Shown piece after piece: positions 1 through 32,679 of a stretch of DNA of 64,000 nt. The stretch lies in the NCBI RefSeq assembly GCF_040958095.1, contig NC_091193.1, positions 19,790,722-19,854,721 on the forward strand, in the 5' to 3' direction. Each line of letters opens with the position of its first letter. The stretch's first letter is position 1. The notes beneath the pieces were generated by a model. That model made no database searches. It worked only from the letters and a program-made list of their open reading frames with translations, and was not told the origin of the DNA. The translations under genes and the position numbers were made by a program. This DNA is from Procambarus clarkii. Taxonomy: Eukaryota; Arthropoda; Malacostraca; Decapoda; Cambaridae.

Positions 1-1097
1 TCAGCCATCTAAGGAAGAAAAACGAGAATAAATTAAGAGAAACTGCGATTTAATAAAGATCACTGCGGTTAGATCACGCCAGCCAGAATGACGCAGACGG
101 AAGACATTGGGAATCTGATAAGGTTTATTTCCTTTAACTTAGATAAGCCCGAGTTTGGTTCATAGAGTAACCTCCCTTTATTATTTAGCTAGTATTTATG
201 GATGTAGGTGTTTAAGTGAAAGTTTGTCACAGCTAATAGCCTAATCTGGTACAGTTTATATACATTATATGATAATAAATTGACTCAGTTTCACTTCTTT
301 GGCTTTCTGGGCTTCTTATCAGACTTACACATGTTAGGGGTTTTATAATGTGCTAAGGTGTGGTTACTCATCCACCAACATACAAGTCTATTAAAGGAGA
401 TAGCCTAATGGCAAACGATAAGTTAAATTTTATATTTATATCTAATGACTTTGTATCAGCCTATGTTTTTTAATGCAATAATGTTTAAGCATAACAACCA
501 TAGTACTACTTACGTTCTTGTAATCACTCGCACTTACGCCTTTTCAGTCCTCAAGTTTGCGAACACTGTTATCTTAACAAAGAGAATAAGACAAAACTAT
601 AGTCAAGATACCTTTGTCTAACCATTAGAGATATTGTAGGTGGTACTTTCCTCGGTAACGCAGAATGACTTAGCATATCATTATAGGCCTTCACCTTTAC
701 GAAGAAGATATTATTCTAGCATAATCAAGTAACTCAAGCAAGTAGCGTTACTGCGAACTATTCGATAATAATTTTGTTCAATTACATGACAATTTCCAAT
801 TTGTGTCGGAAACAGACATAAAACTAATAGGTGGGTTTATAAAGTTGCTGAAACAGTCAAACAGAACTTAGATAAAATTATTCCTTGATTCCTTTCGCAA
901 AATCATAGGTATATTATATTTTGCATGTATGTTATAGAAGAGGACTAATATATAAGGTACCAGTGGAAGTAGGAGACGTGATACTTGTCTAGAGCTCGAG
1001 CCTTCTGCAAAATGATAACAAATTAATAATTATATTCACGGTATTGACTGAGATGTTTCCATCTCGGATTCCTCCTACCTCTCGTATGACTGAAGGT

Positions 1098-3758
1098 TCA
1101 GCTGATAAAAAAAATAGTTCCAGGTAGAAGCAGAGGAACCTTGTGAGACAACATCCACCTCGCCTCACTCCAGGTTGGAGTAGAGATATTGTGTGAGGTA
1201 ACACCCACCTCATTTGCTTTGGCGGCGACTTTGCAGCAGTAGAACTTTCCGTCGCTTTTCATGCACCAGATGTCACAGTCCTCCTCCTCCGTGGCAGTGT
1301 GATCGTCGACCTCCACGCTTGTCTTCGAGTCCTCCTCCGTGGGAGTGTGATCGTCGACCTCCACGCTTGTCTTCGAGTCCTCCTCCGTGGGAGTGTGATC
1401 GTCGACCTCCACGCTTGTCTTCGAGTCCTCCTCCGTGGGAGTGTGATCGTCGACCTCCTCGCTTGTCTTCGAGTCCTCCTCCGTGGGAGTGTGATCGTCG
1501 ACCTCCTCGCTTGTCTTCGAGTCCTCCTCCGTGGGAGTGTGATCGTCGACCTCCACGCTTGTCTTCGAGTCCTCCTCCGTGGGAGTGTGATCGTCGACCT
1601 CCTCGCTTGTCTTCGAGTCCTCCTCTGTGGGAGTGTGATCGTCGACCTCCACGCTTGTCTTCGAGTCCTCCTCCGTGGGAGTGTGATCGTCGACCTCCAC
1701 GCATGGCTTCGAGTCCTCCTCCGTGGGAGTGTGATCGTCGACCTCCATGCATGGCTTCGAGTCCTCCTCCGTGGGAGTGTGATCGTCGACCTCCTCGCTT
1801 GTCTTCGAGTCCTCCTCTGTGGGAGTGTGATCGTCGACCTCCACGCTTGTCTTCGAGTCCTCCTCCGTGGGAGTGTGATTGTCGACCTCCACGATTGTCT
1901 TCGAGTACTCCTCCGTGACAGTGTGATTGTCGACCTCCACGATTGTCTTCGAGTACTCCTCCGTGGGAGTGTGATCGTCGACCTCCACGCTTGTCTTCGA
2001 GTCCTCCTCCGTGGGAGTGTGATCGTCGACCTCCACGCTTGTCTTCGAGTCCTCCTCCGTGGGAGTGTGATCGTCGACCTCCACGCTTGTCTTCGAGTCC
2101 TCCTCCGTGGGAGTGTGATCGTCGACCTCCTCGCTTGTCTTCGAGTCCTCCTCCGTGGGAGTGTGATCGTCGACCTCCTCGCTTGTCTTCGAGTCCTCCA
2201 CGTCAGCGTACCTGTTTGACCCCGTTCTGTGCCTATAATATGAATTGTAATTGTTTATACTATTATTGTGTCACTCATCACACTGTGCTTCCCACCACAC
2301 TGTGCCTCCCATCATACTGTAGTAGGAGGCACAGTGTAGTTCTGTATATTCTTTGGCATCTGCCGGTCGGTCTAACATCTAATGATGACCAAACTACACA
2401 CCAAAAGATGAAGAGCCGACGACGTTTTGGTCCGTCCTGGATCATTAGCCAGTTCATAATCAAGCATGTTTATTGTGACTCATCGTCTAACATTTAATCT
2501 AATGCTATAAAGTATATATATTTGAGGGTTGTCAGCTAGTAATAAAATACGAGTGCCTTACTTTTTATAACCGCCACTTGTAGCAAGTGAGGTGCCTTCG
2601 AGGAGACTGATTGCTTTACTGAGGAGAGGCGTCAGTACGGCGATGAGCTTCTCACTGTCGTCAGTTGCTTCTTTAAGGGATTTCGCGCTGGAGAGGTCTT
2701 GTGTTTGTTGAGCGAATGCCAGCCCCATTAGCAGCCCCACCACAAGCCCTGTGTACAAATAGTGAAGTTGTATTCAGTTCAACGTGGTTAAAATTATGTT
2801 TAAAACTCAAAGAAATGTTGCCTGAAGTTTCTAGACATCATGTTAGGACTGAACGGACTCCGTAACTGGGGATTGCAACCTCGGATATTTGTCATCCACA
2901 TAATAGTTACATAGGCCAGAATTGCTGGCTGAGAGTTTAATTCAAATGTGAACGATGGTTTGTCAGTAAGTTACAGTGGTGACTCTAATAACCCTTGCGA
3001 GGATGATACGCCTTAAGCTCGACACCAAACCAAACATTTCTTAAAAGTACTGATGACTGGCACACAGTTCGTGCCCCGGTAAGCAACCACATTAATACCT
3101 CTACTCTTACCCACCACATATGACACATTCAGATGCTATGATGTGACATTCAGATGATTAATCCTCACTTAATGTGGGACCATAACTTTGTATGGCAACT
3201 TACCCCAAGCTCGGCTACCCACTGAGGATAGGAAGAGACGTCACCATCTAGCTGTGAGTCTGGCATGATGCTCGGACATCATTACGACTGCTGCGCTGCG
3301 GGAATCTCGTGTTTACTCACCTGCCTGGCGTTAATGTTGTGTAATTATTGCATTTCTGCACTAGTGGCAACACAAAGTGGAATAGGTGTGAATGACGCTT
3401 TCTCAACTTTCTACACACTGCACTCCTTAAATGTTCACTTAGCAGTAAATTGGTACCTGGGAATTTGTCAACTGTTGTGGATTGCATCCTTGGGGAAGGT
3501 CACCGACTGAATTTATAGATATACAAGTCAATAATCCTAATTATCCCACTGAGAAGCGTGAGGAACTTAGGATAGTGTCCAGAAGTGCAGGTAAGATAAC
3601 GTAGTTATCAGCATAAAGAGCCTAAGACAATGACTAGCACTTGGGAAGGATGTGAGGACGAAGGTAAGGAACGGGGCCCGACACTTGGACCACCGGGAAT
3701 TTAACACAGATGCAGCGCTGTTGTAGTGACCGGTGGAGGGAGACTTACTTAATAACAT
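1098..3758 (-). CDS. Secreted crustin-like cysteine-motif peptide with 19 acidic 16-residue repeats (copy 1)
   Basis: Three-exon model on the minus strand: exon 1 3749-3758 (ATG TTA TTA A, donor GTAAGT), exon 2 2562-2748, exon 3 1098-2226; about 441 residues. Splice phases agree with copies 2 and 3. The N-terminus MLLRLVVGLLMGLAFA is a clear signal peptide, followed by QQTQDLSS and a roughly 45-residue spacer. Exon 3 carries 19 tandem units of the type EDSKTSVEVDDHTPTE (48 bp each, 1289-2200), strongly acidic with Thr, Ser and His. It then ends in CDIWCMKSDGKFYCC (C-x3-C-x8-CC). That spacing and the Trp-Cys and Cys-Cys pairs match the cysteine block that precedes the WAP domain in crustins, from memory of that family. 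No WAP domain follows; the frame runs on to a stop at 1098. A donor-like GTGGGT at about 1199 could instead end the exon. Secretion is well supported. A defence or mineral-binding role is inference only. Confidence 0.72.
1289..2200 (-). repeat. 48-bp minisatellite, 19 units, coding
   Basis: The 48-bp unit is in frame inside exon 3 of copy 1 and encodes 16 residues. Several frames on both strands stay open because the unit length is a multiple of three; only the minus frame continues into the cysteine motif and the upstream exon. Units vary mainly at two positions (Val or Glu; Thr-Ser or Pro-Cys), and two adjacent units carry Tyr and Asn changes. Confidence 0.9.
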
Positions 3759-3960
3759 GATAAAAGTTGATAGTTGTGGGTTTGGTGTCGTTGGTGGGGT
3801 CCGTGATGGTTGTTATTGGAGTTGGTGGCGGAGGTGTGGGGCAGGTTGATGCCACGATGATGGGTTGAGCAAGACTGAACCCCCACCCAGGTGTACGCTC
3901 TTCAGCACCCCTCCCACAGAATTCTGACATCAAAATCAAGTACATAATTAACAGCGTTCT
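3560..3960 (-). promoter_or_regulatory. Conserved 5' block around exon 1 of copy 1
   Basis: This block recurs at about 11690-12230 and 21790-22330 and contains the exon-1 ATG with its GTAAGTCTCC donor. Sequence upstream of the ATG is Pro/Thr-rich if translated, but its frame is not kept among copies. It reads better as 5' leader and proximal promoter. I could not pick a TATA box. Confidence 0.45.
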
Positions 3961-4129
3961 TTATTTCATGGATATTGTACTTAATGACACATGCAGGACT
4001 TACCTTATGACGAGAATAAGGCTTTCGCAACACTCAAAATCATGTAATGTATTTGTGTTCACTTGTTGCATAAATCTTCAAATGTATTTTACCTGTAACG
4101 TACTAAATACAATATAACAAAAATCATGA

Positions 4130-5060
4130 AGAATAATAGACATCCCGTCCTCATAAAGGCCACATGCTTGTTAATTTAGCTGCCAAACCCACTGTTTATG
4201 AATGAAAAACATTTTACACACGACTCACAACTAATGACATTCGAACATTTCCCGAAATGTTTCACTAGTGACCTCTATTTAAACAGCCCGTCCTTGCATA
4301 CAATGATCCAAGCTCGTTAATCCATCCGCCAAACCCCCTGTTTATGAATGAAAAGCTGTTTACACACAACTCATAACTGATGTCCGAACACTTCCGGAAC
4401 AAGTGCTTCGCTCACGTCCTCGTTTCGAACCACAATTCTATAAACCAGCCCGTCCTCCAAACAAAGATCCAAAAGTGATTCCATGCACCCGCCAAACCCC
4501 CTGTTTATGAATGAAAAGCGGTTTACACACGATTCACAACTGCTGTCGTTCGAACATATCCGGAACAAGTGCTTCACTGACGAATTTTGTTCGAATCACA
4601 ACGCTATAAATGCTTCACCCACGTACTACAAATACAAATAATAGCCAACAGAACCTAAACACCTAACCTAACCTATCCTATACCTATATATACACAATAT
4701 GCTAATATATTATAATATTAATTTATACTTGAGAAAATTCCCGTTTTGAATGAACAGCATGTTAAAATTTATGAATGCGTCTGTGGGGCTGACCGCTGAA
4801 TGTAATGGACTTGAGTCGAGGACGGGTTGATAAATGCTTCACCCAAGTACTTCAAATACAAATAATCGCCAAAGAATCCAAACACCTAACCTAACTTACG
4901 CCTAATCATACATAGAATTTTTAAGTATAAGAATATTAATTTAAATTGGAGAACAAACTAGTTTTTAATGCACAGTATGTTAAATTGATGAATGCGTCTG
5001 GGGAGGACGGCTGCTGCTTTAAAGAGCCTAGTTTAAGGCTGGGTTGATTTAAATCGCACC
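4130..5060. mobile_element. Cluster of short non-autonomous inverted-terminal elements (CCCGTCCTC ends)
   Basis: Several related stretches begin with cccgtcctc or end with gaggacggg. They share internal motifs such as tgtttatgaatgaaaa, a block reading ggaacaagtgcttc, and an AT-rich block after acctaacctaacc. No transposase frame is present. This is a head-to-tail or nested cluster of MITE-like copies. The same family recurs, largely inverted, at 5420-6275. Confidence 0.6.
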
Positions 5061-5419
5061 TTTGTGAATCTTTCACCCATGTACAACAAATACAGATAAT
5101 TACAAGCAGTAGTTGAACACCTAATCTGACCTGATTTATGTCTACCTATACAACAAATTCTAATATAAGATAATGTAATTTATTTATGAGATTTATATAT
5201 AAGATTTTTAATGCAGTATTTTCAAAATAATGAATGTGTGTGTTTGGGGTCAGCTACCGCAATAATGATATGTTGATGCAATCAAATTGGTGTTTTATAT
5301 TGAAATATCAGGGTAAGGAAAACAGTTCATTGTTTGGGGGCTTGTTAATTGGTGCTCTGGTCCTCTGCTATGACAACACGGTCTTGGCATGATTTGCTCC
5401 AAGGCCGTCCTCTTGCCTA

Positions 5420-6275
5420 GTTGTAACATGGGTGATTGTGGGGGAACCCGGCCGCATATACAATGGTCAAATGCTTGTTATTCAGCAGCCAAACCTTCTG
5501 TTTAAGGATGAAAACGCTCTATACATGACTCGCCAACATGTCCTCAGACAAAGTCCATTCCATCCAGCTGTCGACCCCAAAGACGAATTCATCAATTTTA
5601 ACATGCTGTTCATTCACAACAGGAATGTTTTCAAATATAAATTAATATTGTTATATATTAGCATACTGTGCATATTTAGGCATTGGTTTGGTTAGGTTAG
5701 GTGTTTAGGTTCTGTTGGCGATTATTTGTATTTGTAGTACTTGGGTGAAGCATTTACAGCGTTGTGGCTCGAACAGAAGTCGTCAGTGAAGCACTTGTTC
5801 CAAAAGTGTTCGGACGTCATCACTTGTGAGTCGTGTGTAAACCGTTTTTTTTTATTAATTAAACAGTGGGGCTTGGCGCGTGCATGGAATGGACTTTAAC
5901 CATTGTTTATGAGGACGGGTTGCACAACTGATGACACTGGAACACTTCCGAAAAAAGTGCTTCGCGGACGACTTTTGTTCGAATCAAAACGATGTAAATG
6001 CTTTACCCATGTACTACAAATAGAAGTAATCACCAACAGAACCTAAACACCTAACATAACCTAACCTAACCAATGCCTAAATATGTGCGGTATACTTATA
6101 CCAATATTAATTTGTTAATATTCCTATTTTGGATAGGAAAAAATAGGAGACAATTCCTATTTTGAATGAATAGTGTGTTAAAATTTATGAATGCGACTTT
6201 GGGTGTCGACGGTTGGATGGAATGGACTTGGTCTGAGGACGGTTGTCTACGTCCTGAAGTTCGGTCATTAATTTA
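5420..6275. mobile_element. Second, largely inverted cluster of the same MITE-like family
   Basis: The first half is the reverse complement of the family seen at 4130-5060 (ggttaggttaggtgtttagg, then a block near tacttgggtgaagc). The second half, after gaggacgggttg near 5910, is again in the forward sense and ends near gaggacggttg. The pair makes a large imperfect inverted repeat. Confidence 0.55.
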
Positions 6276-6370
6276 TTTATTATGCACCCCATACCCATCC
6301 CGTGGGTGGTGGTGGAAAGGGGGTTACAGAGGTATATAGTAGGTTCAGGAACTGAACCCCATAGTTCATT
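6255..6370 (-). mobile_element. Dispersed retroelement 3' tail (TTTATTATGCACCCCAT family)
   Basis: Begins with tttattatgcaccccatac, followed by a block rich in tggaaaggg and gttacagagg. The same block is at about 20150-20245, about 31510-31590 and, in the opposite sense, about 45070-45170, with only a short piece near 43195-43225. Family assignment is uncertain. Confidence 0.55.
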
Positions 6371-6445
6371 TAGCTAAGCAAATGACAACACAAATAAATT
6401 GCCTGAAATTAAACACCTGTCCTGATCTACGCTGTGAACAAATGT

Positions 6446-6449
<4 letters not shown>

Positions 6450-6520
<71 letters not shown>
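6450..6520. repeat. (TA)n microsatellite
   Basis: Uninterrupted alternating TA over about 70 bp. It has no coding meaning. Confidence 0.95.
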
Positions 6521-6521
<1 letters not shown>

Positions 6522-6707
6522 ATATATATATAGTTTCATTCACTTTGAGCACTAGGCTCTCGAGCACCCGACCTCCGGCATGGGTGTAGTCGCTCTATCA
6601 ATTGGGAACTGGGCCTTAAAAGAGAAGGATCCCAAGGAAACTAACTGCTCCCCAATGGATCGTGCCATTCCTAGGCTACCACTCGAGCACAAGAGAATTA
6701 TGTAATC

Positions 6708-6815
6708 CACGCCACGAGTTATGTAAACTGTTTACCACACTACCGTGAATGAAAAGTTACACCCACAGTAGTGTGGTAAACAGTTTGTATAACTCAGGGC
6801 GTGGATCACCCAATT
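6708..6815. repeat. Stem-loop inverted repeat
   Basis: Arms of about 40 bp pair across a 20-25 bp spacer: atccacgccacgagttatg on the left against cagggcgtggat on the right, with gtttaccacacta against tagtgtggtaaac. It probably belongs to a folded-back repeat beginning near 6540. Confidence 0.7.
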
Positions 6816-7329
6816 CTGTCTTATTTGTTCGACGTTGGAGGCCAGCCACTTGCAGCTAACTTCACAAAATTTTGCATGGTGATTGGTTTAGGGTACGGGG
6901 CAGACATAGGGTGGTCGGGTGGTCGAATTTCATGTCTCACCTTTGCTTAAATGCCAAATTACACTAATTTTCAATTTCATTAAATAAAAAAATTCATTTT
7001 CACTAAAATTCATCTAGCATATTAAATGTTAGTTTTTCTTATTGAATTTATTGATGAAGACTACTTTGTTAAAATTGTTATGGGGATGAAAGGAAAGTGG
7101 TGAAGAGTAGAGAAGATGGTGAAAGATAGGGAAGTTAATGAGTGGTAAGGGAGGCGGTTAATTATAGGGAAGGAGGTGAAGGGTAGGAAAGATGATGAAG
7201 AGTAAGGAAGGTGAAGGGTAGGAATGATGGTGAAGGGAGTACTGGGAAGAGTGGGGATAGGGAAATATATATGAGAGAGGGGAAGATTGAGAGAGTGGGG
7301 TAAGGGAGAGAAAAACCTGGGCGCAGATG

Positions 7330-8010
7330 GGTACTCCTAGTTAATAAAATTAATGAAAATAGGGCACTTGACTTTTACCAGGTTCATCCTGAATTAGTAA
7401 AAGCTATTTATCACTGCCTTGAGCCATTCAGATTTATATATAGAGGATTATTGATTTCTGACTGACTCCTATAATAATGGAAGAGTGGTGTCATTGTACC
7501 TCTATATACTGTATAAGTAATGTGAAACCCTCTATTCATCTTATAAGCCAATCTGTTGAACTTTGTAATTTGATGGACAGTCACTGCTATTTAGCAGCAT
7601 ATTTGCATGTAAATATAATAGTCTTTGACAGTGAACATGGCTTTTTCAGCAACTTACCAACAACAAATTTACTGAAAAGTTAGTGATTATATAGTATAAT
7701 GATAAACATTGCTTGGATATAATTTATATTCAGTTTATAAAGGCATTTGATAGTCACATTATAAATTATTGTTGAAGCTAAAATGCTTTGATGTTGGACG
7801 AATTTGTTAATTACAAAGTAACATTGTGTTGTAAGTTTCAAAATAGTTTATCTACATTTGTAACTCAGTAGTCAGTGGTATTCCACTGAACTATTCTTGG
7901 ACCACTTTTACTCTTTATTTATATGAAAGATCTACCAGGAGTAATGAAACATGGTAATATAAAATTTTATGCAGATGACTAACAATTAGATACAATATGC
8001 TTTTCTTCAT
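7330..8010 (+). mobile_element. Degraded LINE reverse transcriptase remnant
   Basis: Broken plus-strand frames show RT pieces: VFDSEHGFFSNLPTTNLLKS near 7606-7680, a KAFDS-like block near 7735, and LGPLLLFIYMKDLPGV followed by KFYAD near 7895-7980. Several stops and shifts are present. A homologous remnant sits at 14880-15310, so the insertion predates the tandem duplication. Confidence 0.7.
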
Positions 8011-9336
8011 GTCATATTAGCAAATGTACAAATGGGAAACTGCCGCTGGATGGACGAGGCTGCTGGTGGACGACGGTAACCCTAGAAAAAGAACCATTTA
8101 CCACTGCTGCCGTGAATTATCGTCTGCACCCTCACAACCTATGGAAGAAAAATGAGTATAAATTATGAGAAAAATGCGATTTCATAAAGATCACTGCGGT
8201 TAGACCACGCCAGCCAGTATGACGTAAACGCTAGGCTTGCTGGGACTCTGATAAGGCTTCAGGTATATTTCCATTAACTTGTGGTGCAGAATAACGTCTT
8301 TTTAACCTTCAGCTATTATCTGTGGATGTAGATGTTTAAGTGAAAGTTTGCTATTACAGCTAATTATTAGTATAGAATTAATAGTTAATCGTTGAAATTC
8401 CACATCATCCGTCACTTTGGGGCACGGTTCTGCATCTCCGAATATTAAAGGGTTTGTTAATATATATACACAAGTGAAGAATTTTATGTGTGAAGGAGTG
8501 ACTTAACATGGTTTATGTGGTTTATGAAGTTGATGGTAACCAATTATCATTGTTTTGATCAGACAATTAAAAAGGGATTTATTACTCATAATAACGTCAG
8601 TGACCGATATAAGTATGTAAGTGGGGAACACGTCTGTTAAAATGTGCTAAGATAGAAAAATGTTCTTCCAGTTTTATCTTCGATAATATGATCTAATGGA
8701 ATTGTCATGATTTATTTATAATTTATATTCGTTACAGATTCTGTGGTGCTATGTTCCAAGGTAATTAAGTGTAGAAAGTACGTGTAATTTGATCAGAAGT
8801 ATGGAAAAATAAGTAACATTCTGTTACGTTTTCTACCTGCTTGAAGACAATTTTTGCATGGCAACAAAGTATATATCTATTTTCTATAGTGTGTATACTG
8901 ATGGATATGACTTACGACACGGAACTATTTTGTTTCAAAGACTGATGTGCATAACTCTGTAACTTGTCTGGTTAAGTCAGACATAATTGAAAATTTGGTG
9001 GCAGGGGCAAGGAGGTGGGAGTCCCGTAAGCTCCCACGCGGGAGACCACAGTTGAATTTCCACTCCGGAAGAAATTGGTAAGTGTGCTGCCTGCTCCACA
9101 ATTTTCTTAAGTTGACCGTACTTACTGTTATTAATAGTAGCCCACATTAATTTTACATGTAGTGAGAGCAATCCTAGACAAGAGTGTTTAAGGTAAATGG
9201 TCTCGAAGCAAGTAACCAATAGGTGGCAGTTACAGGTTGGCCGAGTGTTGGATACGAGGGTTGGGGAAGTCTGGATTTGTGAGGAATTGATGTAGGTGTT
9301 CAGCTTTACCTATCTCTGAAAGTTTACGTAGGCTCA

Positions 9337-9625
9337 AATAAGGGGCCGGAAGGCTGAGTGGACAGCGCTCGGGGTTCTTAGTCCTAAGGGTCCGGGTTCA
9401 ATCCCCGGCGGAGACGGAAACAAATGGGCAGAGTTTCTTTCACCCTGATGCTCATGTTCGCCTAGCAGTAAATAGATACCTGGGAGTTAGACAGCTGCTA
9501 TGGGCTGCTTCCTGGTGATGTGTGTGAAAATTAGGATTAAGGACTTGCCCGAAACGCTATGCGTGCTAGTGGCTGTACAAGAATGTAAGAACTCTTGTAT
9601 ATATATAAATAAATAAAATAAATTT
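9337..9625 (+). mobile_element. tRNA-derived SINE
   Basis: The head resembles a tRNA with an A box (ggctgagtggacagcg) and a B box (gggttcaatccccgg). The body includes tttctttcaccctgatgc and acctgggagttag, and the tail is an A/T-rich run of aaataaataaa. It is not a functional tRNA gene because the acceptor stem does not close and a SINE body follows. Confidence 0.85.
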
Positions 9626-10019
9626 GTTATATTGCTTATTTGTTAACTATATGCGGGATGCTATTTAGAGTATTTGCCTGTTCTTGTGAGTAGGTTCTGT
9701 TAAGTAATGCTGAAGAAACTATGTAAGAGAAGGGTTGGATACCTCACCCTGATAGATGAAACTTATGACGGATCATGTTCATTGATTGATTGATAAAGAT
9801 TAAGCCGCCTTAAAGGTATCACGGGCATGAATAACCTCGTAAGTGGAGGCTCTTTCGAACCATTACCAGTACCAATAGCTGATACTGTGGATGGATGGGG
9901 TTCTTATGTTGAGTATTGCGTGTAGTTATATGTAGGGGGCCCCAGACCGAGTGAGAGACATTATAGTGACGGGAAATACTTAAGATACATGATACGTTAT
10001 TAATTAACAGGAACAATGT

Positions 10020-10340
10020 GTGCTACCACCCACCTCTCCTCTCTACAGGTAGGAAGGAGTTGGGGAACAGTGTGAGGCACCACTGACTTCACTCTAGTAG
10101 GTAGAAGTGGAGAAACAGTGTGTGGCAACCCACCCCGCGTCTCTCCAGGTAGAGTCAGAGGGACAGGTTGAGTGTGAGGCAACACGCCTTTCCTCACTCC
10201 AGGAAGGTGTGGAGGATCTGTGTGTTGCAACACTCACTTTTTCTCACTCGGGAAGGAACGGAGGAACAGTGTGAGGCAACACTCACATCGTCTCACTTCA
10301 GGTAGGAGTGAAGCAACACTCACCTCCCCACTTTACAGGT
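10020..10340. repeat. Degenerate minisatellite of about 55-60 bp downstream of copy-2 gene
   Basis: About five units built around acctgg, gtgaggcaacac and cactcacc motifs lie just 3' of the copy-2 stop codon. Single or double related units occur at the equivalent place in copies 1 (1130-1215) and 3 (about 17300-17345). The array grew from flanking sequence after duplication. Confidence 0.7.
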
Positions 10341-10533
10341 AGGAAGAGGAGCAGCAGTCGAACGTTCCCTGGTTGTTCAGACACCAGTTTTCACAGGCCT
10401 CCTCCGTGTCTTGGTCGTCGTATACCTGGACCTTTGTCTTTGAGCTGATGTCTACGAAAGCCAAACGTTTTGACTTGCCCGAAACGTTCAACGCTGATCT
10501 GTACCGATAATAATAATAATAATTGAATATACC

Positions 10534-10616
<83 letters not shown>

Positions 10617-11912
10617 TAATATTTATATATATAATATTTATATACGATAAGCTTGAATGGTCTTCAAGCCAAATATATCAGAAAAAACTTCCTCATGAAG
10701 GCTTCGAACATCAGACAGTCAGGCGCTCCAAACACTTAGCATGTCCAATACCATAACCACTGGATCACGACTGACTACAAAAATGTTGGTAGTTGTGAGA
10801 CTATTTACCCAACACCCGACAGCACTCGGTGGCCAGTGGTCACAGATAATTTTCATCAAATCAATTCACTATGTGAGGAAAATGCGAGCCTCATATGTGC
10901 GATAAGCCTGAAAACGCGAGCCTTATATGTAAGGACAAGCTTATCGTACATATGAGGCTCACGTTTTTCTCACAAAGAGGCTCACGTTTTTCTCACTTAA
11001 AGTTCATTGAACGGCTTGTGCTCTTAACTTTCCCTCTCGTTCTCTTACCTCACCCTACCGTCGCAATACGAAATACTGCTTATAAAATGTAAACGTAGAG
11101 ATGTAACCTACTTCTTGGTGTGCACACAGTTAACATTTTAGCTCTGGACTTGAGAATTAACAAAGTTTTGAAACTAAGATCCTTAATGACCCTGCCGGTC
11201 GAAGCCTAACACCTAACTGCTGATAGAAATATATTTGAGAGTTGCTAGCAGGTGGTCGGATATAATGGTTTCTTACCTTTTTGAACGGCCTGATTGATAG
11301 GCACTCCTTTCATCTCTAGTGGTAGATGACTTGCCGCTAAAAGAATTGCCTATCTTTTTTATGAGAGACTTCGCGTCGTCGGTGACGTTCTCGGTGTAGC
11401 TAACCGCGTCTTCAATGGGTTTCCTGACGGGTGAGAAGGGTCTTGAGCGAGCGTCTGCCAGCACCACCACCACCACCAGCCCGAACACAAACTCTGTGCA
11501 TAAATACTTAAGTTGTAGTTTTGTTCAACGTATGTTTAATTATGCTTAAAGTGGAAAGAAATATCCTAAAGTTTCTTTACACTATTTCAGGACTGAACAA
11601 ACTTAAAAACTGGGGGGATTGTACCCACCTCTGATGTTGTCTTTCATGGAAGGTCACCGACTGAATTTTTAGATAAACACATCAATGATCCTAATTACCC
11701 CACTGAGAAGTGTGAGGAACTTAGGATAGTGTCAGGAAGTGCAGGTAAGGTAACGTAGTTATCAGCATAAAGAGCCTAAGACAATGACTAGCACTTGGGA
11801 AGGATGTGAGGGCGGAGGTAAGGAACGGGGCCCGACACTTGGACCATCGGGAATTTCACACAGATGCAGGGCTGTTGTAGTGACCGGTGGAGGGAGACTT
11901 ACTTAATAACAT
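10333..11912 (-). CDS. Secreted crustin-like cysteine-motif peptide without repeats (copy 2)
   Basis: Minus-strand exons: 1, 11903-11912 (ATG TTA TTA A, then GTAAGT); 2, 11277-11493; 3, 10333-10498 with stop TAA. The product is 130 residues. It starts MLLKFVFGLVVVVVLADA, a signal peptide. The propeptide-like exon 2 ends in SGRSKR at the junction, matching the furin consensus R-x-K-R; a second KSKR follows about 10 residues later. Exon 3 continues to an acidic stretch (YDDQDTEEA) and the terminal CENWCLNNQGTFDCC, then SSSYL. Cys spacing C-x3-C-x8-CC is identical to copies 1 and 3 and resembles the pre-WAP cysteine block of crustins. There is no WAP domain before the stop and no repeat array, so this may be closest to the ancestral form. 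Intact as read. Function is inferred only from family resemblance. Confidence 0.75.
10533..10612. repeat. (TA)n microsatellite
   Basis: About 80 bp of alternating TA lying 5' of the copy-2 exon 3, inside its second intron. Confidence 0.95.
10640..10860 (-). mobile_element. tRNA-related SINE, minus strand
   Basis: Read on the minus strand, a tRNA-like head (atccagtggttatggtattg) leads to a B-box-like gatgttcgaagcc and a short body. A related fragment is visible at about 26195-26300. It lies in the second intron of the copy-2 gene. Confidence 0.55.
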
Positions 11913-12239
11913 GATAAAAGTTGATAGTTGTGGGTTCAGTGCCGTTGGTGGGGTCCGTGATGGTTGTTATTAGAGTTGGTGGCGGAGGTGTGGGGCAGGT
12001 TGATGCCACGATGATGGGTTGAGCAAGACTGAACCCCACCCAGGTTTACGCTCTTCAACACCCCTCCCGCCCTGCCTCTAACGCAAACACTAATTCTGCC
12101 ATTAGCATCAAGTGCATTATTAGCAGCGTTCCTTTCTTGTGGAAACTGTACTTGACGCTAATGGAGGAATGCTTACCACCGTAGAGAATAAGGCTGCCCG
12201 CAGCACTCGAACACCCCTAATATTTCTCAACCCATCCTC

Positions 12240-12780
12240 TAGCACAAGCTATAGTCTAATACGTAGATTTTAACATATGCAGCAGACAACTAACTGACGG
12301 GAAGAATCTTTTGTTCATTAAAATAAACAATAGTTTATCAAATGTAAATTAATTTTATTTTGTGTGTTTATGTAATTTATGGATAGATAAGGTGTTTTGA
12401 TAATCTTAATTTATGGATTGATTGTAATTAAAGCTGAAAATTAACTAATCATGTTTCATGTCATAGCTGCTAACATGGTTAAGTCGATTATATGTCAAAT
12501 ATTGACATGTAGATAATAATAATTAAGTATTTGACTTATACGTTGTAATCCCTATGGCTCTTCCTTGTGATGAAGAGCTATAAGAGCTATATTTTCTGCC
12601 CTTGCTAAGCAAAGCTTTCCACTGTTAAACCTTCAACTTGGTAAATAAAATGTATAAAAAATCTTGAAGAAATGTGTCGATATATAAATTGATTATGAGC
12701 TCTCTCATCAGTGACTAATTACGAGGATGTGAGGTCTAGCTTTTTATTCTCCGCCTGCTAACCTTGCTGTACCTGTTTCG
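12240..12780. other. No gene or named repeat seen
   Basis: AT-rich spacer following the exon-1 block of copy 2. No ORF, hairpin or tandem repeat that I can support. The same holds for 15310-16070, which is interval DNA of the duplication unit. Confidence 0.5.
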
Positions 12781-14115
12781 TTATTCATTTTTATTTATTT
12801 TTAATTATTTATTTATATATGCAAGAGTTCTTACATTCTTGTATAGCTTAACTATCATGGCGATCAAAATCTACTTCTCTTAGTGCATTCTAATTGTTTC
12901 CTTATATATCTTCGACTCATTTGTGTTTGCAGCTTCCACTTGTGTCCTCTTGTCCTAATTTCTCGTAACTTAAAGCTGTCCTTGCCCACCTTGACTATTT
13001 CCCTGAGTATCTTGTATGTTGTGATCATATTTCATGTTTCATCTGTCCTCCAAGGTTGTGAGGATCAGTTCCTTCAACTTATCTTCATAGCTTAACTATC
13101 TTAGCTCTGGCATTAATCTAGTTGCACTTTTTTAATTTTTGTTTTATGCGTTACAATATATGAGTTCCAGGCCTGTGCCGCTTATTTTAGTATTGGAAGA
13201 ACAAAAGCTGTGTAGATTTCCTTGAAAGCGACCTAGGTCAGGTTTGTAAACGCCATTCTAATATTTGCCTGCGTCCCATATGCTGCTGATGTGACCCTGC
13301 CTATGTGTACCTCTGATGCTAGTATTGGACTTATATCCACTCCCAAATGTTTTTATCTTTCCGATTCCTGCAGTTGCCTTCCATTTATGGTGTATACATA
13401 TATTTTCTCGTCTTCTTCCTCCCCTGTCATCATTACCTTACACTTATTGGAATTTATTACCTTACACTTATTGGAACTGAACTCTAGCAATCATTTGTTT
13501 ACCTGCTCTTGGGGTTTGTCAAAGGCTTCCTGTAACATTCTGCAATTCTCTGTTTTTACATTCTTCTTTCTCCTCACATAGTCTGAAAACATTTACATGT
13601 ATGAGCTCACTCCCTCATGTAGATTATTGACATAAATTTGGAACAGTAGTGATCCACGGACCGATCCGTGGGATACCAAGGATCTCCTCCACTCGTTACA
13701 TTTCTCCAGCTGAGGACGTCACCTGTAACTCTTTGTCTTCTGTCCTTCAGGTACTCTCTTACCCAGTTTAGTGTCTTCCCATTATCCCAGCTTGCTTCTC
13801 CATCTAGTTCACCAGTCCTTTGTGAGGAACGGTATCAAATGGTTTTTGACAGTCTAGGGAAAAAACAATCTATCCAGCTTTATTCTCCCCTTCACACTTT
13901 AGTGTCCTTGTTTTAAAACTCGATCAAGTTTGTCAGACACGACTTTCCCCTTCTAAATTTATGCTGTCTTTTTGTTACCAGTTTATCCTCTCCAGGACCT
14001 TCACTATTCTCAACCTGATTTCTTTCTCCAGCACTTTACACGGAATAATTGTCAATGACATTGGTCTGTAATTCAGTGCCGCCTGTCTGTCTCCTTTCTT
14101 GAATTAAAGGAACGC
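12780..14115 (-). mobile_element. CR1-like LINE remnant, minus strand, broken
   Basis: The reverse complement gives RT pieces in order from 14110 downward: LNYRPMSL-like text near 14060, an RxxIVxxLER region, a WIDCFF...RL region near 13880, LNWVREYLKDRRQR near 13760, then a C-terminal region down to 12880. Many stops and shifts are present. It aligns along its length with 37890-38725. The 12780-12850 tail (ttatttatatatgcaagagt) matches the tail of the SINE at 9337. Confidence 0.75.
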
Positions 14116-14879
14116 ATTGTCTTGGTCCAGAATTTTGGGTCATTTCCGACTTAAGAGTGTTATAATTAAATTGATGATTTGTGGGTTGGCCGCTTACTCT
14201 TCAGCCACGTTATTGTGACTCGTCATGTTTATATTTAAATATCAGGTTATTTAAAATAAATATTTGTGTGAGGCTTGTAAATTGATACCGAATGCTTCAC
14301 TAACGTATTTCGATTGCAAGCAATTGGCAACAGTAAAGATGCAACCTAATCTATTATACACCAAATTCTCCTTCAAATGTTGCTTCTTGTGGTAAGGGTG
14401 TTCACATACGATACCCTGGTTGATTGATTGATGAAGATTAAGCCACCCAAGAGGTGGCACGGGCATGAATAGCCCGTAAGTGGTAGATTTTTGGGAGTGA
14501 ATATGATATTTGGTCGTGAAAGGACCTTTCAAGGGTTCTTTCAAGGGAAAGGAAGGACCATTCTGTGTGCTGTGGTGGCTTTTAATCGTCAGTACATGCT
14601 CTGTGACTGCTACCACGGGGAGGATACTGTTCCCCGACCCGACCATGTTATTAGTCGGAATTTAATTCCGACCAATAACTATTTAATTAATGAGGGGTAA
14701 TTAATTCCAAACTAGAAATTTTCAACTTGTGGATTTCTTTAACTACATTGATTCTAAACCAATAAATAACAATGATTTCCAAACAAAAAATAGTGCAACC
14801 AATGATAATTAGAATGTTCCTCCTTGTGATCAGAGTGAATACCTCTTGATATAGTGTCGATATTAAAATAACTGACATT

Positions 14880-15310
14880 CTTTAGGCTATTTTATAAGAT
14901 AAACTAAAATGGTACGCCTTGTATTGCACAGATTCATCCTAATTTTGTCAAATCAGTTTATCAATACCCGATTAAGCTGCATATACATATATCAACTCAG
15001 GTTGACTACTACAACGATGGAAGATTAGTGTCATTGTACTCATAAATGTAATAGTTAACCCTCTATGATTGTTATAAACCTATCTGTTGAACTATTGTAA
15101 TTAAGTTGATGGAAAGTGTAATATATAGCCATTTAGTAACATACTTGCACGTAAATAAAATTGCCATTGATATTTAACATGGGTTTATTAGTAACATAAC
15201 AACACCCAATTTATCAGGAAATATTTAAATGATTAAATGTTTGGATATATTTTAAATTAGTTTGCAAAAGACATTTGATAGACTCACATCCTTAATTACA
15301 GTATGTTATT
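14880..15310 (+). mobile_element. LINE remnant, paralogue of 7330-8010
   Basis: Homologous to the remnant in copy 1 and at the same relative position, but more decayed. No frame of useful length remains. Confidence 0.6.
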
Positions 15311-17345
15311 CCCGAAAAGAAGTTCTTCAAAGATCTAGGTTGCAAGATCTAGGTTCTTTTTATGTAATAATAGAATGTTAAGTTTATACCACCTATATAA
15401 GACCATTAAAGCAGAGTAATACTTCTATCTGAAGCCATCACAATGTTGAAGACTATTCTATTTAGAAGTGTGCAACGTTAATATACATAATTGTAGGAAA
15501 TTCTAGGTCAATTGAATTTTGCAGAAACATGTGAAATATTGTGGCTTTACTGACCCTATAAATAAGAATATACGCAAACCTCATTTTGCACCACAAAAAT
15601 TGTTCAGACATATATATTGATACTGATGGCATAGCTACCCTAAAACAAATAATACAAGGGGTTATGGGCCAAAAAAATCGATACTCAGTACAGTTGGTTT
15701 AATTGTCGGAAGTTTTTCTTTACAAATATAATAATACCTATTTCGAATGATCTTATAATGTGAACTACACTACACTACACATTTGTTCATTTATAATGTG
15801 AAGTAGCAGACAGTAACATTCTATGTAAATTTATAATTGTGTTAAATACGATTGATGTTTTTTTTTTTAATTTTGTAAGGAATGCGATCGCACAGCTTTA
15901 TGTATGTTCGCTACTGTTTAGCTGGTTTGGATAATATACATGCCTGTTAATTTGTATCACACATATACATATCTTTGTTAATTTAAAGATTCATTTACCA
16001 TGTTCAGAACAAGAATTGATTGAATGATTTTTAAAGATGAATAAATAATTAATATTAACAAATGTACACAGGAAACTGCCCTTGGATGGACGAGGCTGCT
16101 GGTGGGCGACGGTAACCCTAGAAAAAGAACTATTTACCGCTGCTGCCGTGAATTATCCTCTCCAACTTTGTCATTATGGAAGAAATAATGATAAACAGAG
16201 ATTTCATAAAGATCATTGCAGTTAGCCCACGCCAGCCAGTATGACGCAGACGGAGGACTTTCTGGGAATCTGATAAGGTTAATTTCCTGTAACGTAGATA
16301 TGCATGATTTTGGCTCATAGAATAACCTCCCTTTAACATTTAGATATTATTTATGGATATAAGTGTTTAAGTGAGTTTATTACATTAATATCCAATATTA
16401 GTCAGGTATAGAATAGATTGGTAATTGTTTAAATTTCGATCTTTAGTCACCTGAAGCATGGTATTGGATCTAATATTACATTTATATACATATGTGAGAG
16501 TTTCATTTGTGAAGGTGTGATTAGCCGCCCACCTATAGAGTGGGTCTTGTAAGTAGATAGTCTAATTGCAAAAAGTTAATTTAATTTCATATTTATACCT
16601 AATGACCTTTATTTGTCATCCTATCTATATTTTTTAATGCATTTCATATTAAAGCAAAATAACCATAGTACTAGTTACTGTCTTGTAATCATTCGAACGT
16701 CTGGTTTAAAGTAAGTGTACAGTAGGATATAAGTAGTAGGCATCCATCAGTATCAGGAGATTAATGGATGCACCCAGCGATATAAGTAGGTGATATTAAA
16801 ACCGATGCATAATCATTTTGTCTGATTAGAGGAATTATTTGTGTCTGTACCAGAGATAAGACTAATAAGGGAATTTGTAAAGTTACTGAAACAACCGAAC
16901 AGAATCTGGATACAAATTCTTCAATGAATCCTTTCTTAAATACATAGGTACCCTGTATCTTATAATTTGCCTGATATGTAGTCATGACGGCTTGGCATAT
17001 CTCCATATTTCAAATCAAATCATATATCATATATCAAAATCGGGTATATCTCCTGATATTTCCTTTCCGTAAACTTATAATTTGCCTGTATGTTATAGAA
17101 GGGGATTAGCATATAAGATACCTATGAAATTAGGAGACTTTATAATACTGACAAAATGTTTTGCAAAAATAATGACAAATTAATGATTATATATACGGTA
17201 TTGATATTACCATCTCAGATTCCTGCTACCTCTCGTATGACTGAAGGGGATTCCTGCTACCTCTCGTATGGCTCCTACCTGGAGCTGATAAATATTAGCT
17301 CCAGGTAGGAGCGGAGAAACCTTGTGAGGCAACACCCACCTCGCC

Positions 17346-20300
17346 TCACTCCTGGAGATATTGTTTTATGCAGCAATCGAACTTTCCTTCGCTGTTCATA
17401 CAGAAGTCTTCACATTCCGTCTTCTTGCCTTTCTTGTCTTCGCCCCCGTTCTTTTTCTCCGAGTCTTTGCCTTCGTCCGTTTTCTCAGAGTCTGTGCCCT
17501 CGTCCGTTGTCTTCGAGCTCTCGCCTTCGTCCGTTGTCTTCGAGCTCTCGTCTTCGTCCGTTGTCTTCGAGCTCTCGCCTTCGTCCGTTTTCTTCGAGCT
17601 CTCGCCTTCGTCCGTTTTCTTCGAGCTCTCGCCTTCGTCCGTTTTCTTCGAGCTCTCGCCTTCGTCCCCTTTCTTCGAGCTCTCGCCTTCGTCCCCTTTC
17701 TTCGAGCTCTCGCCTTCGTCCCCTTTCTTCGAGCTCTCGCCTTCGTCCCCTTTCTTCGAGCTCTCGCCTTCGTCCCCTTTCTTCGAGCTCTCGCCTTCGT
17801 CCCCTTTCTTCGAGCTCTCGCCTTCGTCCCCTTTCTTCGAGCTCTCGCCTTCGTCCCCTTTCTTCGAGCTCTCGCCTTTGTCCCCTTTTTTCGAGCTCTC
17901 GCCTTCGTCCCCTTTCTTCGAGCTCTCGCCTTCGTCCCCTTTCTTCGAGTTATCAGCCTCGTCTTTGTTAGTTGATTTATTTGAAACGGAATTCTCTGAT
18001 CTGTACCAATTGTAATTATATAATTAATATTTTTATTATTTTATAAGCCATATCAATTGAGACATTTTATAAATTTCTCTCTCTTGATATTGCCAATTTC
18101 CCCATTCATAAGTTATCTATGTTATAGCGCACCTTGCTCTGTAGACTCAATCTTTTATCACTCACACTTAACAATTTTATGATTGATTTCTGTCGCCATA
18201 CTCATTCATGAGGTCCTGGATACCTAGAGCTGTTCATTGTCGCTTATCTAACTCAATAAGCTCATTCTTAAGCTTAATGCTTCAACTTTCATCCTTTTGA
18301 GTCTAATGGAAATGTTTTTTTGAACATGCATAGCAGCCCATCTCCCGTAATGGGTTTTATGTCACACCTTTTGGGAGTGTTTCCCGGCTCTCCACGACCT
18401 GGCCCGGCAGGATTAACCTTCGCATTGTACCTCCCACTTGAGGTTATCTTGAGTTGATTTCGGGGCTTTTTTTTTTTTTAGTGTCCCCGCGACCCGGTCC
18501 TCGACCAGGCCTTCACCCCCAGGAAGCAGCCCGTGACAGCTAACTAACTCCCAGGTACCTATTTACTGCTAGGTAACAGGGGGCATAAGGTGAAAGAAAC
18601 TCTGCCCATCGTTTCTCGCTGGCGCCCGGGATCGAACCCGGGACCACAGGATCACAAGTCCAGTGTGCTGTCCGCTCGGCCGACCAGCTCCCACTACACA
18701 GTCTCACTCATCACAATGCCATACTGTAGTAGGAGGCAGAGTGTGCTTCTGTATCTTCTCTGCCGTCTCTTGTCAACATTACTGCACTGGCTCAAGGGGA
18801 GGGGGGTAGAAATAGCCTAAGCTACTCTATCCCTTTGAGATGTATTTATTGCTTATCTCAATAAACATACTTGAACTGACTCAAGATTCTCTCCTTCGCC
18901 CGTCTCCTTCCACTATTTGCCTCGTGGCAACCTGTCTTCCTAATAGAAAGTCTCATTTCGACGCACACTCTACCCAAGGCCAAAAGTCGTTGTACTAGAA
19001 AATGGTTGCGGCTCGTGAAATTGACGTACTGTCCCGTTTTCTGTTTTAGACTCTCTGGTTGGTTAGGATGAGGGTACTTTAGTACGATAGTTTCTTGACG
19101 TTGGGAAACCTTAGGAGGAAGGGCTGCGTCCCATACCAGCCCATTTCTCGAACGTTCCCAGCGTCAAGAAACTATCGTATTAAAATGCCATATCTTAACC
19201 TCATACCGTTCTTGCGAACATTTCCAACGACAAGAATCTGCCGTATTAAAAAGCCTTATCTTACAGCCCGTCCTCCTAACGTTTCCCAACGTCAAGAAAA
19301 CGGTAAATTTAAAGAGTCCTTTCCTATCCTACCAGAGGACCCAAAACAGAAAACGGGACGTTGTCAATTTTGCGAGTGTCTACCATACACCCTTCTATGG
19401 GCTAGCGTGTTATAAGCCATATAAATAGTGTTATAAGCCATATAAATAATGTGTAATAACACGAATAATGTTTTCGCCGCACTCCTATAGCAGCCGTTAC
19501 TTGGAACTCGAAATTGAAATTGAAATAAGTTTATTGAGGTAAAATACACACAAAGGGATGAGGTAGCTCAAGCTATCCTCACCCCGTTCAGTACATCGTG
19601 TTAATACATACATATACACACATCACAAACAATAAACATATTACCAAACATTCTGAGAGATAAACATCTACATTTCCTACGGAACTCGAAGGTTCAGGCA
19701 ATTCAGTACATCATTTTTGTGACGTGACAACTCTGGAGGACGGGCTGTAGAATGAGTCAAATTCACAAAGTTAGCATGAGCGCTAAATTCAAACAGGCAT
19801 TAGTATGAACGACAAATGTAAACAATTGTTAGTATGAGCGTCAAATTCAAACAATCGTTAGCGTAAGTACTAAATTCATACCTCCAGACGAATATGATAA
19901 GTGTCTTATCAACATCAAATATAGTTATCATTGCAACGTAATTGTTGCTTACTGCTAGTAAAGATAAATTAGAAAAATATGCCCAGTTTTTGCAGAAATT
20001 TTATTTTGAAATGCAAATCACCTTAGAAAAAAAATTACTTTTATGAAAGCGTGAAGGAGCTTTCTATAAATATTAAATTAATCAAGTATTTTCCATAGAA
20101 ACAAAAAAGGCACAAATTTGTATAAACTAGTTAGTTTTAGTTTAGTTAATTTATTATGCACCCCATTCCCATCTTGTGGGCGGTAGTGGAAAGGGTTACA
20201 GAGGCACATAATAGGCTCAGGAACTGAACCCCACAATTCATGTAGCTAAGGAAGTAAATTAGTAATGGTGGAAGTTGAAATATACGACAGGACCCACCGG

Positions 20301-21940
20301 GCAAGGCTCTCCAGTGCTATAACAACAGCAGCTCGCATCATCAACAGCCTAAGCCATCTGGACGTCATACTAAACAATAATTCAAAAACAAATCCACTCA
20401 TGAGTAACACCAAGTCTCGTTGTACTTTAAAAGTTCAGTGAACGGCTTGTGCGCTTGACCTTCCCTCTCGTTCTCTTACCTCACCCTACCGTCGCAATAC
20501 GAAATACTGCTTGTAAAATGTAAGCGTAGAGATGTAACCTACTTCTTGGTGTGCACACAGTTAACATTTTAGCTCTGGACTTGAGAATTAACAGTTTTGA
20601 AACTTTGATCCTTAATGACCCAGCCGGTCGAAGCCTAACACCTAATATAATGCCGATAGAAATATATTTGAGAGTTGCTAGCAGGTGGTCGGATACAAGG
20701 GTTTCTTACCTTTTAGAACGGCCAAATTGATATGCACTCCTTTCATCTCTAGAGGCTGATGACTTGCGGTTTAAAAAATCGTCTATCTCTTCGTAGACAG
20801 ACTTCGCGTCATCGGTGACGTTCTTAGTGTAGCTAACCACGTCTTCAATGGATTTCCTGACGGGTGGGTCGTTGGGCCTTGAGCGAGCGTCTGCCAGCAC
20901 CACCACCAGCCCGAACACAAACTCTGTGCATAAATACTTAAGCTGTATTAGTTTTGTTCAACGTGTGTTTAATTATGCTTAAAGCGGAAAGAAATATCCT
21001 GAAGTTTCTTTACACTATTTCAGGACTGAACAAACTTCAAAACTGGGGAGATTGTACCCACCTCTGACTCTGACTACTCCCCAGTCTCGTGCTAAACTAT
21101 GTTTCCTATTAAATTTCGAACAAGAATTTGTCGAAGAGGCTGTAGCGTCAGCAATGTATGGCTTTGTGTTTATAATGAATAGTGTACACATATCTAAAAC
21201 AATTTAATTTGCGATGACATTTAAATATTACATGAAACCCAGTCTATTACAGCCTGACATAGTAGGTGAATGTATAACCCAGTCTATTACGGCCTCACAT
21301 AGTAGGTCTACGAATAACACTGTAAATTACAGCCAAATAGTAAGCTTATGTATAACCCAGTCTATTACAGCCTAACTTGGTGCGCTTATGTAAATCCCAA
21401 TTTCAGCTAACATTGTAGGTTTATAAATAAATATTACAACCTAACATAGTAAGCTCATGTATAAACTAATGTATTACTACCTAACATACTAAGCCATGTA
21501 TAAAATAGTGTATGTCAGGCTACATAATAAGCCATGTATAACCTAGTATATGTCAGGCTACATAGTATAACTCCATATTTATAACAGTTTAATTACCTTA
21601 ACATATTTTTAATATACCAGTTATTACAGACCGTTGTGGGAACTTGCAATTAGATCACAATTAATTAATTAAATTAAAATCCTAATTTATTATTTAAGAC
21701 GTGTACTTGAGTGAGTAAAAATCCGCATTTTACAATAGAAAATACTAAATGAGTGAACATATTTGTACTCAGCCACCATATTGGTATATTAGGCAAAAAG
21801 AGCCTAAGACAATGACTAACACTTGGGAAGGATGTGAGGACGAAGGTAAGGAACGGGGCCCGACACTTGGACCATCGGGAATTTAACACAGATGCAGCGC
21901 TGTTATAGTGACCGGTGGAGGGAGACTTACTTAATAACAT
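17346..21940 (-). CDS. Secreted crustin-like cysteine-motif peptide with 9-residue repeats (copy 3)
   Basis: Minus-strand exons: 1, 21931-21940; 2, 20710-20923; 3, 17346-18000 (stop TGA at 17346-17348). The lengths sum to 879 nt, or 292 residues, with phases identical to copy 2. The signal peptide is MLLKFVFGLVVVLADA. Exon 2 ends FGRSKR, a furin-type R-x-K-R site at the exon junction. Exon 3 starts SENSVSNKSTNKDEADNS and runs into about 17 units of EGESSKKGD or close variants. It then reads GGEDKKGKKTE and ends CEDFCMNSEGKFDCC plus IKQYLQE. The repeat unit bears no resemblance to that of copy 1, although the flanking exons are clearly paralogous. No WAP domain follows. The second intron of about 2.7 kb holds a SINE and inverted-repeat elements. 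Role unknown; secretion and processing are well supported by motif. Confidence 0.75.
17455..17950 (-). repeat. 27-bp minisatellite, about 17 units, coding
   Basis: The 27-bp unit (minus-strand sense EGESSKKGD) lies inside exon 3 of copy 3. Purity is high in the middle and units at the 3' coding end are degenerate, suggesting growth from the centre or the 5' side. Confidence 0.9.
18425..18700 (-). mobile_element. tRNA-derived SINE, minus strand
   Basis: Reverse complement shows a B-box (cgggttcgatcccgg), a body matching the SINE at 9337 (tttctttcacctt, acctgggagttag), and an A-run at the 3' end (the t-run near 18466). It lies in the second intron of the copy-3 gene. Confidence 0.85.
19020..19760. 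mobile_element. Inverted-repeat DNA elements, with an embedded retroelement tail
   Basis: The stretch carries several MITE-like ends (acagcccgtcctcctaac, ggaggacgggctg) and pieces related to 22996-23367 and 27730-27850. A tail block at 19505-19690 (aataagtttattgaggtaaa, then ctaccctc-type text) recurs in opposite sense at 23395-23570. No transposase frame seen. Confidence 0.5.
20150..20245 (-). mobile_element. Retroelement 3' tail, same family as 6255
   Basis: Begins ttattatgcaccccattc and continues to a gttacagaggcacataat block. It lies in the second intron of copy 3. Confidence 0.55.
21220..21575. repeat. Degenerate tandem repeat of about 40 bp
   Basis: About nine poorly conserved units containing tataacccagtctattaca and cctaacatagtaggc. 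It lies in the first intron of the copy-3 gene and is absent from copies 1 and 2. Confidence 0.6.
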
Positions 21941-32640: not shown

Positions 32641-32679
32641 CATTCCTAGAAGTCCTACACTGGTTCTTGGTCCACTCAT

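Follow-up and report, generated by a model that had tools for sequence, protein, structure and literature searches.

The question raised by this locus is whether a small set of secreted peptides with a crustin-type cysteine block, and in which no WAP domain was detected, derives from crustins or merely resembles them. The three predicted genes, c1, c2 and c3, lie on the minus strand of a 64,000 nt stretch of contig NC_091193.1 of the crayfish Procambarus clarkii (the window), and their models were drawn from the genomic sequence. We consider them to be probably crustin-derived, secreted, WAP-less paralogues. About 9.4 kb past c1, outside the window, the same strand carries an apparent crustin gene, the neighbour crustin. 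The searches covered the window, the window with 100 kb on either side (264 kb in total) or the whole genome (4.03 Gb). The predicted exons are the following:

c1 exon 1, coding part, 3749..3758, minus strand: ATGTTATTAA, MLL plus one base
c1 exon 2, 2562..2748, minus strand: remaining signal peptide (A-F-A before Q-Q) and a propeptide-like part
c1 exon 3, 1098..2226, minus strand: acidic repeat, cysteine block, then a tail of 44 residues with homology to the 3′ untranslated region (3′UTR) of c3
c2 exon 1, coding part, 11903..11912, minus strand: ATGTTATTAA
c2 exon 2, 11277..11493, minus strand: signal peptide (A-D-A before R-S) and propeptide
c2 exon 3, 10333..10498, minus strand: single segment before the cysteines, cysteine block and stop
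c3 exon 1, coding part, 21931..21940, minus strand: ATGTTATTAA
c3 exon 2, 20710..20923, minus strand: signal peptide and propeptide
c3 exon 3, 17346..18000, minus strand: KKGDEGESS repeat, cysteine block and stop

The preliminary description had proposed three paralogous minus-strand genes with common intron phases and a coding exon 1 of 10 nt. This was borne out in all three copies, with exon 1 ending in phase 1 and exon 2 in phase 2. The six predicted junctions are all GT-AG, and in the sequence models the frames join as had been stated. The predicted proteins are 441 (c1), 130 (c2) and 292 (c3) aa long. Their N-termini, judged by inspection and not by a signal-peptide predictor, are hydrophobic and contain A-x-A in every copy. 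In c2 and c3, exons 2 and 3 meet at the sequence R-S-K-R (in c2 inside its last codon), which we take to resemble a furin site and which c1 lacks. The predicted isoelectric point (pI) is 4.1 for c1, 4.7 for c3 and, for c2, 4.5 after a cut at R-S-K-R or 8.7 without it; the net charge is about -96 for c1 and -22 for c3. No Pfam family scored above its cut-off for any of the three proteins, the repeats of c1 and c3 being shortened in the queries. A PDB search with c2 gave nothing convincing, and Foldseek with the model of c2 exon 3 (mean predicted local distance difference test score, pLDDT, 62) returned seven matches with E ≤ 10 and none with E ≤ 0.001.

The paralogy of the genes is most apparent around their first exons, where the three copies share a 5′ module:

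c1 5′ module, 3494..4038, minus strand: upstream DNA, 5′UTR, exon 1 and the start of intron 1
c2 5′ module, 11648..12230, minus strand: nucleotide match to the c1 and c3 modules
c3 5′ module, 21793..22257, minus strand: 95 % to c2

Module identity is 86.6 % over 568 columns between c1 and c2 and 95 % over 466 columns between c2 and c3. Near the ATG, from -120 to +229, each of seven 50-column bins shows 92-100 % identity between c1 and c2. The whole genome yielded 25 matches to the module DNA, three long ones (c1-c3) and 22 short ones, which all start at query positions 376-379 in intron 1 and represent a dispersed repeat. The leader region is far more alike among the copies than exon 2 or exon 3. 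Despite their near-identical leader region, c1 and c2 show a synonymous divergence (dS) of about 1 in the coding part of exons 1-2. A near-identical leader beside an old mature part points to possible gene conversion, or to the leader and intron being under constraint. Aligned exon-2 sites differ between c2 and c3 more often (28 of 211) than do sites in three stretches of flanking intron (26 of 555; Fisher p 1e-4). In the mature part of exon 2 the nonsynonymous divergence (dN) is 0.20 and dS 0.23; since both are about 0.2, positive selection on exon 2 was set aside, and an older divergence with flanks homogenised by putative gene conversion would fit the excess better than selection on the protein. 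The codons of the signal part differ between c2 and c3 by no nonsynonymous and one synonymous change (gap columns excluded), and between c1 and c2 by dN 0.38 and dS 0.28.

The cysteine blocks near the ends of the proteins follow the pattern C-x3-C-x8-CC:

c1 cysteine block, 1233..1277, minus strand: CDIWCMKSDGKFYCC
c2 cysteine block, 10351..10395, minus strand: CENWCLNNQGTFDCC
c3 cysteine block, 17370..17414, minus strand: CEDFCMNSEGKFDCC

The six frames of the window contain three matches to this pattern, one per gene and none elsewhere, while the chance expectation is a mean of 0.12 and a maximum of 1 (60 first-order Markov resamplings). Over the 264 kb there were five matches: those of c1-c3, that of the neighbour crustin and, at window coordinate -43918, one in a low-complexity frame rich in cysteine. 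The motif had been described as terminal, which is nearly so in c2 and c3 (followed by five and seven residues) but not in c1, where 44 residues follow. It had also been likened to the block that precedes WAP in crustins. Here the spacing agrees in all copies and a Trp stands before Cys2 in c1 and c2 (Phe in c3), but c2 and c3 gain no credit from a crustin profile. Our definition of the crustin block follows the available passages of PMC5793079 and PMC10363340; the latter gives CRYWCKTPEGQAYCC as the block seen most often in penaeids, and a length of 15 residues for 89 of 110 blocks. When the non-cysteine residues were compared and summed over four crustin blocks, 21 (c1), 292 (c2) and 359 (c3) of 20000 shuffles were as good.

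Profiles of the block and of the WAP domain were built from 26 of the 38 proteins (E ≤ 1) that L024, a crustin of the same genome, found in the protein database as a control search; because of this result the database can be said to hold decapod crustins. With the block profile (8269 open reading frames, ORFs, searched and 4545 listed), c1 ranked first and the neighbour crustin second among the listed ORFs. Modelled by AlphaFold2, the block forms a hairpin both in c2 exon 3 (strands 38-40 and 46-48; pLDDT 73 and 85 in the covering ten-residue bins) and in the Homarus crustin P0021 (strands 27-32 and 38-43; bins 58-67). The overall pLDDT of 62 and 63, respectively, indicates modest confidence, and the c2 model is not independent of the other, as its alignment included crustins.

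Other identities of the block were considered and rejected. Calcium-binding EGF domains carry six cysteines, and their middle part closes with C-x-C; the block has four cysteines ending in CC, and c2 reached 15.3 bits for EGF_CA against a cut-off of 27 (E 0.025). The penaeidin C-terminal domain also has six cysteines, compared with four in the block.

The gene that would link c1-c3 to crustins is found beyond the left edge of the window:

neighbour crustin, L010:712-1675 (window -9288 to -8325), minus strand: two exons of an apparent crustin, one with the block and one with the WAP

Its block exon ends with CPYWCKRDNGSLRCC-PNKE, and a WAP exon with a stop follows about 0.6 kb further on the same strand. 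Joined at GAGA|GTCAGT and CCCACAG|CACGC, an inferred join, the two exons give a Pfam WAP match of 26.2 bits against a cut-off of 20.8. By eye, the block exon has possible acceptors in the phase that matches c1-c3. It aligns across most of c2 exon 3 (31-32 %; tblastn E 0.001-0.002 in the 264 kb), and for the parts of c2 and the neighbour that precede the cysteines 16 of 2000 shuffles were as good. Searching the whole genome with the c2 protein returned five matches with E ≤ 10: c2 exons 2 and 3, c3 exon 2, the neighbour block exon and one elsewhere (E 1.84). The same search missed c1 and the c3 block, so diverged members could escape detection. The part of the neighbour crustin that was seen has a pI of 7.0, and it had no candidate in the protein database.

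That no WAP cysteine pattern lies downstream in c2 and c3 had been stated before, and the statement withstood tblastn, a regular expression and the crustin-WAP profile. Neither tblastn with the neighbour WAP as query nor an eight-cysteine regular expression detected a WAP between c3 and c2 or between c2 and c1, and Pfam detected none in the c1-c3 proteins. The profile gave two strong hits in the 264 kb, neither between c3 and c1: the neighbour WAP (E 2e-8) and a plus-strand exon at 37122-37295 (E 6e-9). The next-best hit had E 0.065 (at -94323), and on the minus strand from c3 to c1 only chance-level frames at 4274 (E 3.4) and 4595 (E 12) were recovered. A donor-like GAG|GTG(A/G)GTGTT follows the block in all three copies, in frame in c1 and past the stop in c2 and c3. 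It may be a relic of a lost exon junction, and it may leave room for a further c1 exon.

The plus-strand exon is the one WAP-like exon in the window. It reads CPPPRERC...CCIDEC...C, followed by a stop and then AATAAA, and Pfam reports nothing for it despite the profile match. A possible signal-peptide exon was noticed at 35540-35628, whose phase does not join directly to it. A LINE-like element (long interspersed nuclear element) lies further along the plus strand at 53769-56021, where an extended open frame includes a reverse transcriptase domain (Pfam RVT_1 E 1.9e-32).

Most of c1 and c3 consists of in-frame minisatellites, which the preliminary description did not mention, and the end of c1 is related to the 3′UTR of c3:

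c1 coding minisatellite, 1282..2199, minus strand: 48 bp x 19.1, unit DSKTSVEVDDHTPTEE
c3 coding minisatellite, 17454..17949, minus strand: 27 bp x 18.4
c1 tail and 3′ flank, 914..1174, minus strand: homologous to the c3 3′UTR, 70 %
c3 3′UTR, 17075..17355, minus strand: homologous to the c1 tail, 70 %

The c1 unit matches a single segment that precedes the block in c2, SKTKVQVYDDQDTEE (0 of 2000 shuffles as good), and because of this match it is most likely that the c1 array formed when a segment once present singly was amplified. After its block, c1 continues for 44 residues into sequence homologous to the c3 3′UTR, translated in another frame. The open frame across the repeats was not accepted as evidence of coding, as the arrays can also be read without stops in other frames. 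Another minisatellite of 27 bp x 58.9 occupies 32638-34299 of the window, with several frames open (SDKDDTSVY units on the minus strand).

Several results weigh against a crustin origin. The alignment of c2 with the neighbour crustin is not significant genome-wide (E 7.0 and 3.9); therefore the link draws its weight from position, and our confidence in the origin is slightly reduced. The donor in the join of the neighbour exons, GTCAGT, is non-consensus. Exons 1-2 of this gene were not detected by tblastn, and inspection of the hydrophobic frames in the 3.3 kb of readable sequence ahead of the block exon did not reveal them. Its part before the cysteines shows no match to the c1 unit, as 1542 of 2000 shuffles scored equally well. 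The E-values behind the first two ranks in the block profile are 0.21 for c1 and 0.28 for the neighbour, neither significant, and c3 and c2 rank 599 and 1174 among the listed ORFs; because of these low ranks the case rests on the paralogy and the neighbour, and not on the blocks of c2 and c3. Individual block-to-block comparisons fall short of the summed ones: between 15 and 1739 of 20000 shuffles did as well, the upper figure coming from the c3 block against that of the neighbour. None of the 126 candidates for c2 in the protein database had E ≤ 10. Exon 1 of c1-c3 (10 nt, phase 1) is unlike that inferred for L024 (M-K, phase 0), and the intron of Crustin-like Lv of L. vannamei lies in the 5′UTR (PMC5793079). 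The definition of crustins asks for a cationic mature peptide, such as L024 with its pI of 9.2, and c1-c3 are acidic (c2 after the R-S-K-R cut). Finally, the WAP test is incomplete for c1, beyond which the 5,000 bases adjoining the left edge of the window (-4999 to 0) are all N.

These results would suit an independent family of secreted peptides, in which the block is convergent with that of crustins and merely happens to lie near a crustin gene. The low ranks of c2 and c3, the genome-wide E-values of the c2 alignment, the weak EGF_CA match below cut-off as the sole Pfam match of c2, and the leader exon unlike that of L024 all point that way. We nevertheless regard convergence as unlikely, as the adjacent crustin on the same strand has an alignable block exon with possible same-phase acceptors, c1-c3 are paralogous by their 5′ modules, and c1 ranks first against crustins. 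The preliminary description had left the choice between crustin-derived and convergent, and the neighbour with block and WAP on the same strand favours the former, a conclusion supported in part, as the blocks of c2 and c3 are unrecognised by the profile. A quite different alternative, that c1 and possibly the others still encode crustins with exon 3 spliced to a WAP exon further on, seems very improbable. It could draw on the donor-like site after each block, on other GT sites seen by eye to overlap the stops of c2 (CT|GTAAAG) and c3 (GA|GTGAGG), on the run of N past c1 and on the neighbour crustin, which requires such a splice. However, no WAP exon was detected between the copies by tblastn or regular expression, and the profile hits there are at chance level; the neighbour WAP acceptor is in phase 1 and the c1 donor in phase 0; and c1 has an acceptor-like TTTTGCAG|AAGG of its own, which would add a short non-WAP end.

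The copies could also be decaying duplicates, i.e. unexpressed crustin pseudogenes, and the reading of c1 through the position of the ancestral stop, together with a divergence that carries no clear purifying signal (dN about equal to dS in the mature part of c2-c3, and above it in the c1-c2 signal part), is what decay would leave. We consider this quite improbable, as the frames are open, the splice sites are intact and the four block cysteines are retained in all three diverged copies, and the signal codons of c2 and c3 differ only synonymously. Crayfish mineral matrix proteins are often acidic. The strong negative charge of c1 and c3 and the expansion of different repeats in these two copies would thus agree with acidic secreted matrix proteins (of cuticle, gastrolith or egg coat) built on a crustin scaffold, with acidic repeats that bind calcium. 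This, too, is an unlikely explanation of the set, as c2 is free of repeats and, with R-S-K-R left uncut, would be basic in its mature form.

Under a crustin origin, a crustin gene in Procambarus crayfish would have been duplicated in tandem, and the three copies would have retained the leader exons and the four-cysteine block and lost the WAP exon, if the direction of change is taken correctly. The segment before the block would then have been free to change: it stayed single in c2, reached about 19 units in c1, and in c3 a different unit of nine residues was amplified. The precursor would be secreted, c2 and c3 probably being cleaved at R-S-K-R after the propeptide, and the product would be a mostly disordered acidic arm that ends in a hairpin with two putative disulfides. 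Whatever their origin, c1-c3 are by definition not crustins, as no WAP, the hallmark of crustins, was detected in them (for c1, with the 5 kb next to the window being N). A bolder reading, which we consider somewhat less likely than not, sees in them a new crustin-derived class that has discarded the WAP domain and kept the hairpin, with acidic repeats in two copies and a gene-converted promoter-leader that would keep common control while the products diverge.

Without WAP, the products are not expected to kill as crustins do. In Crus1 the WAP cysteines are required for killing and dispensable for bacterial binding (PMC8005205), and CshFc of Fenneropenaeus chinensis is described as lacking a WAP domain and showing almost no antibacterial activity (PMC8626000); because of these two cases we infer that c1-c3 would bind through the hairpin and not kill. 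The hairpin would most likely bind a surface (microbial cell wall, host cells or cuticle), the acidic arm serving as a spacer, and the product might act as an opsonin-like or decoy molecule. A crab crustin is said to work by opsonisation without obvious direct activity (PMC9305162). Such a binding function is rather doubtful. The acidity of c1-c3 counts against attachment to bacterial walls by charge alone; a role in a matrix or in calcium binding may be considered.

Compared with type I/II crustins, including L024 and L034, the three proteins share an N-terminus that by inspection looks signal-like, the C-x3-C-x8-CC block with a Gly in mid-block, the Trp before Cys2 (c1 and c2) and a block modelled as a hairpin (in c2 and the Homarus crustin). 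They differ in that no WAP domain was detected in them and that c1 and c3 carry long repeats before the block. An early intron in the signal peptide is common to c1-c3 (after 10 nt) and L024 (after two codons, as inferred from the acceptor position and comparison with P0001), and it is not universal among crustins; Crustin Lv of L. vannamei has one after two codons, within the signal peptide (PMC5793079). Another crustin, the Gly-rich L034, lies on this contig some 3 Mb from the locus (22874000-22876000). Two weak genome-wide hits, L035 and L036, showed no crustin on inspection. P0001, a P. clarkii protein from nr, shows 94 % identity to L024 across 96 % of the query, in which the L024 repeat was shortened. 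This clear crustin is named translation initiation factor IF-2-like in the protein database, a kind of misnaming described for penaeid crustins (PMC10363340).

The closest published case is LOC119568318 (XP_037772700) of P. monodon, with the crustin cysteine block consensus and no four-disulfide-core domain (PMC10363340). As far as the published description allows comparison, it resembles c1-c3 in having a crustin-type block without WAP, so the idea of a WAP-less crustin-block protein is not wholly new. It differs in being a single penaeid sequence with a canonical block, for which the available passages of that paper give no repeats, cluster or gene structure. CshFc, compared by description only, is also said to have no WAP, and its near-inactivity matches the prediction for c1-c3, but it could be truncated or have no relation to them. 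Type III single-WAP proteins, within the wider crustin group, show the opposite loss, with the WAP kept and the cysteine block absent (PMC5793079). A search largely outside subscription journals turned up no description of crayfish crustin families without WAP, nor of a cluster that combines a WAP-bearing neighbour with repeat expansion.

The role of the crustin cysteine block apart from the WAP domain is unclear from the published tests available, which disable or omit the WAP. If our reading is true, a WAP-less set beside a WAP-bearing relative would provide matched material for asking what the block does alone, and how an immune peptide may be repurposed through the loss of a domain and the amplification of a short segment.

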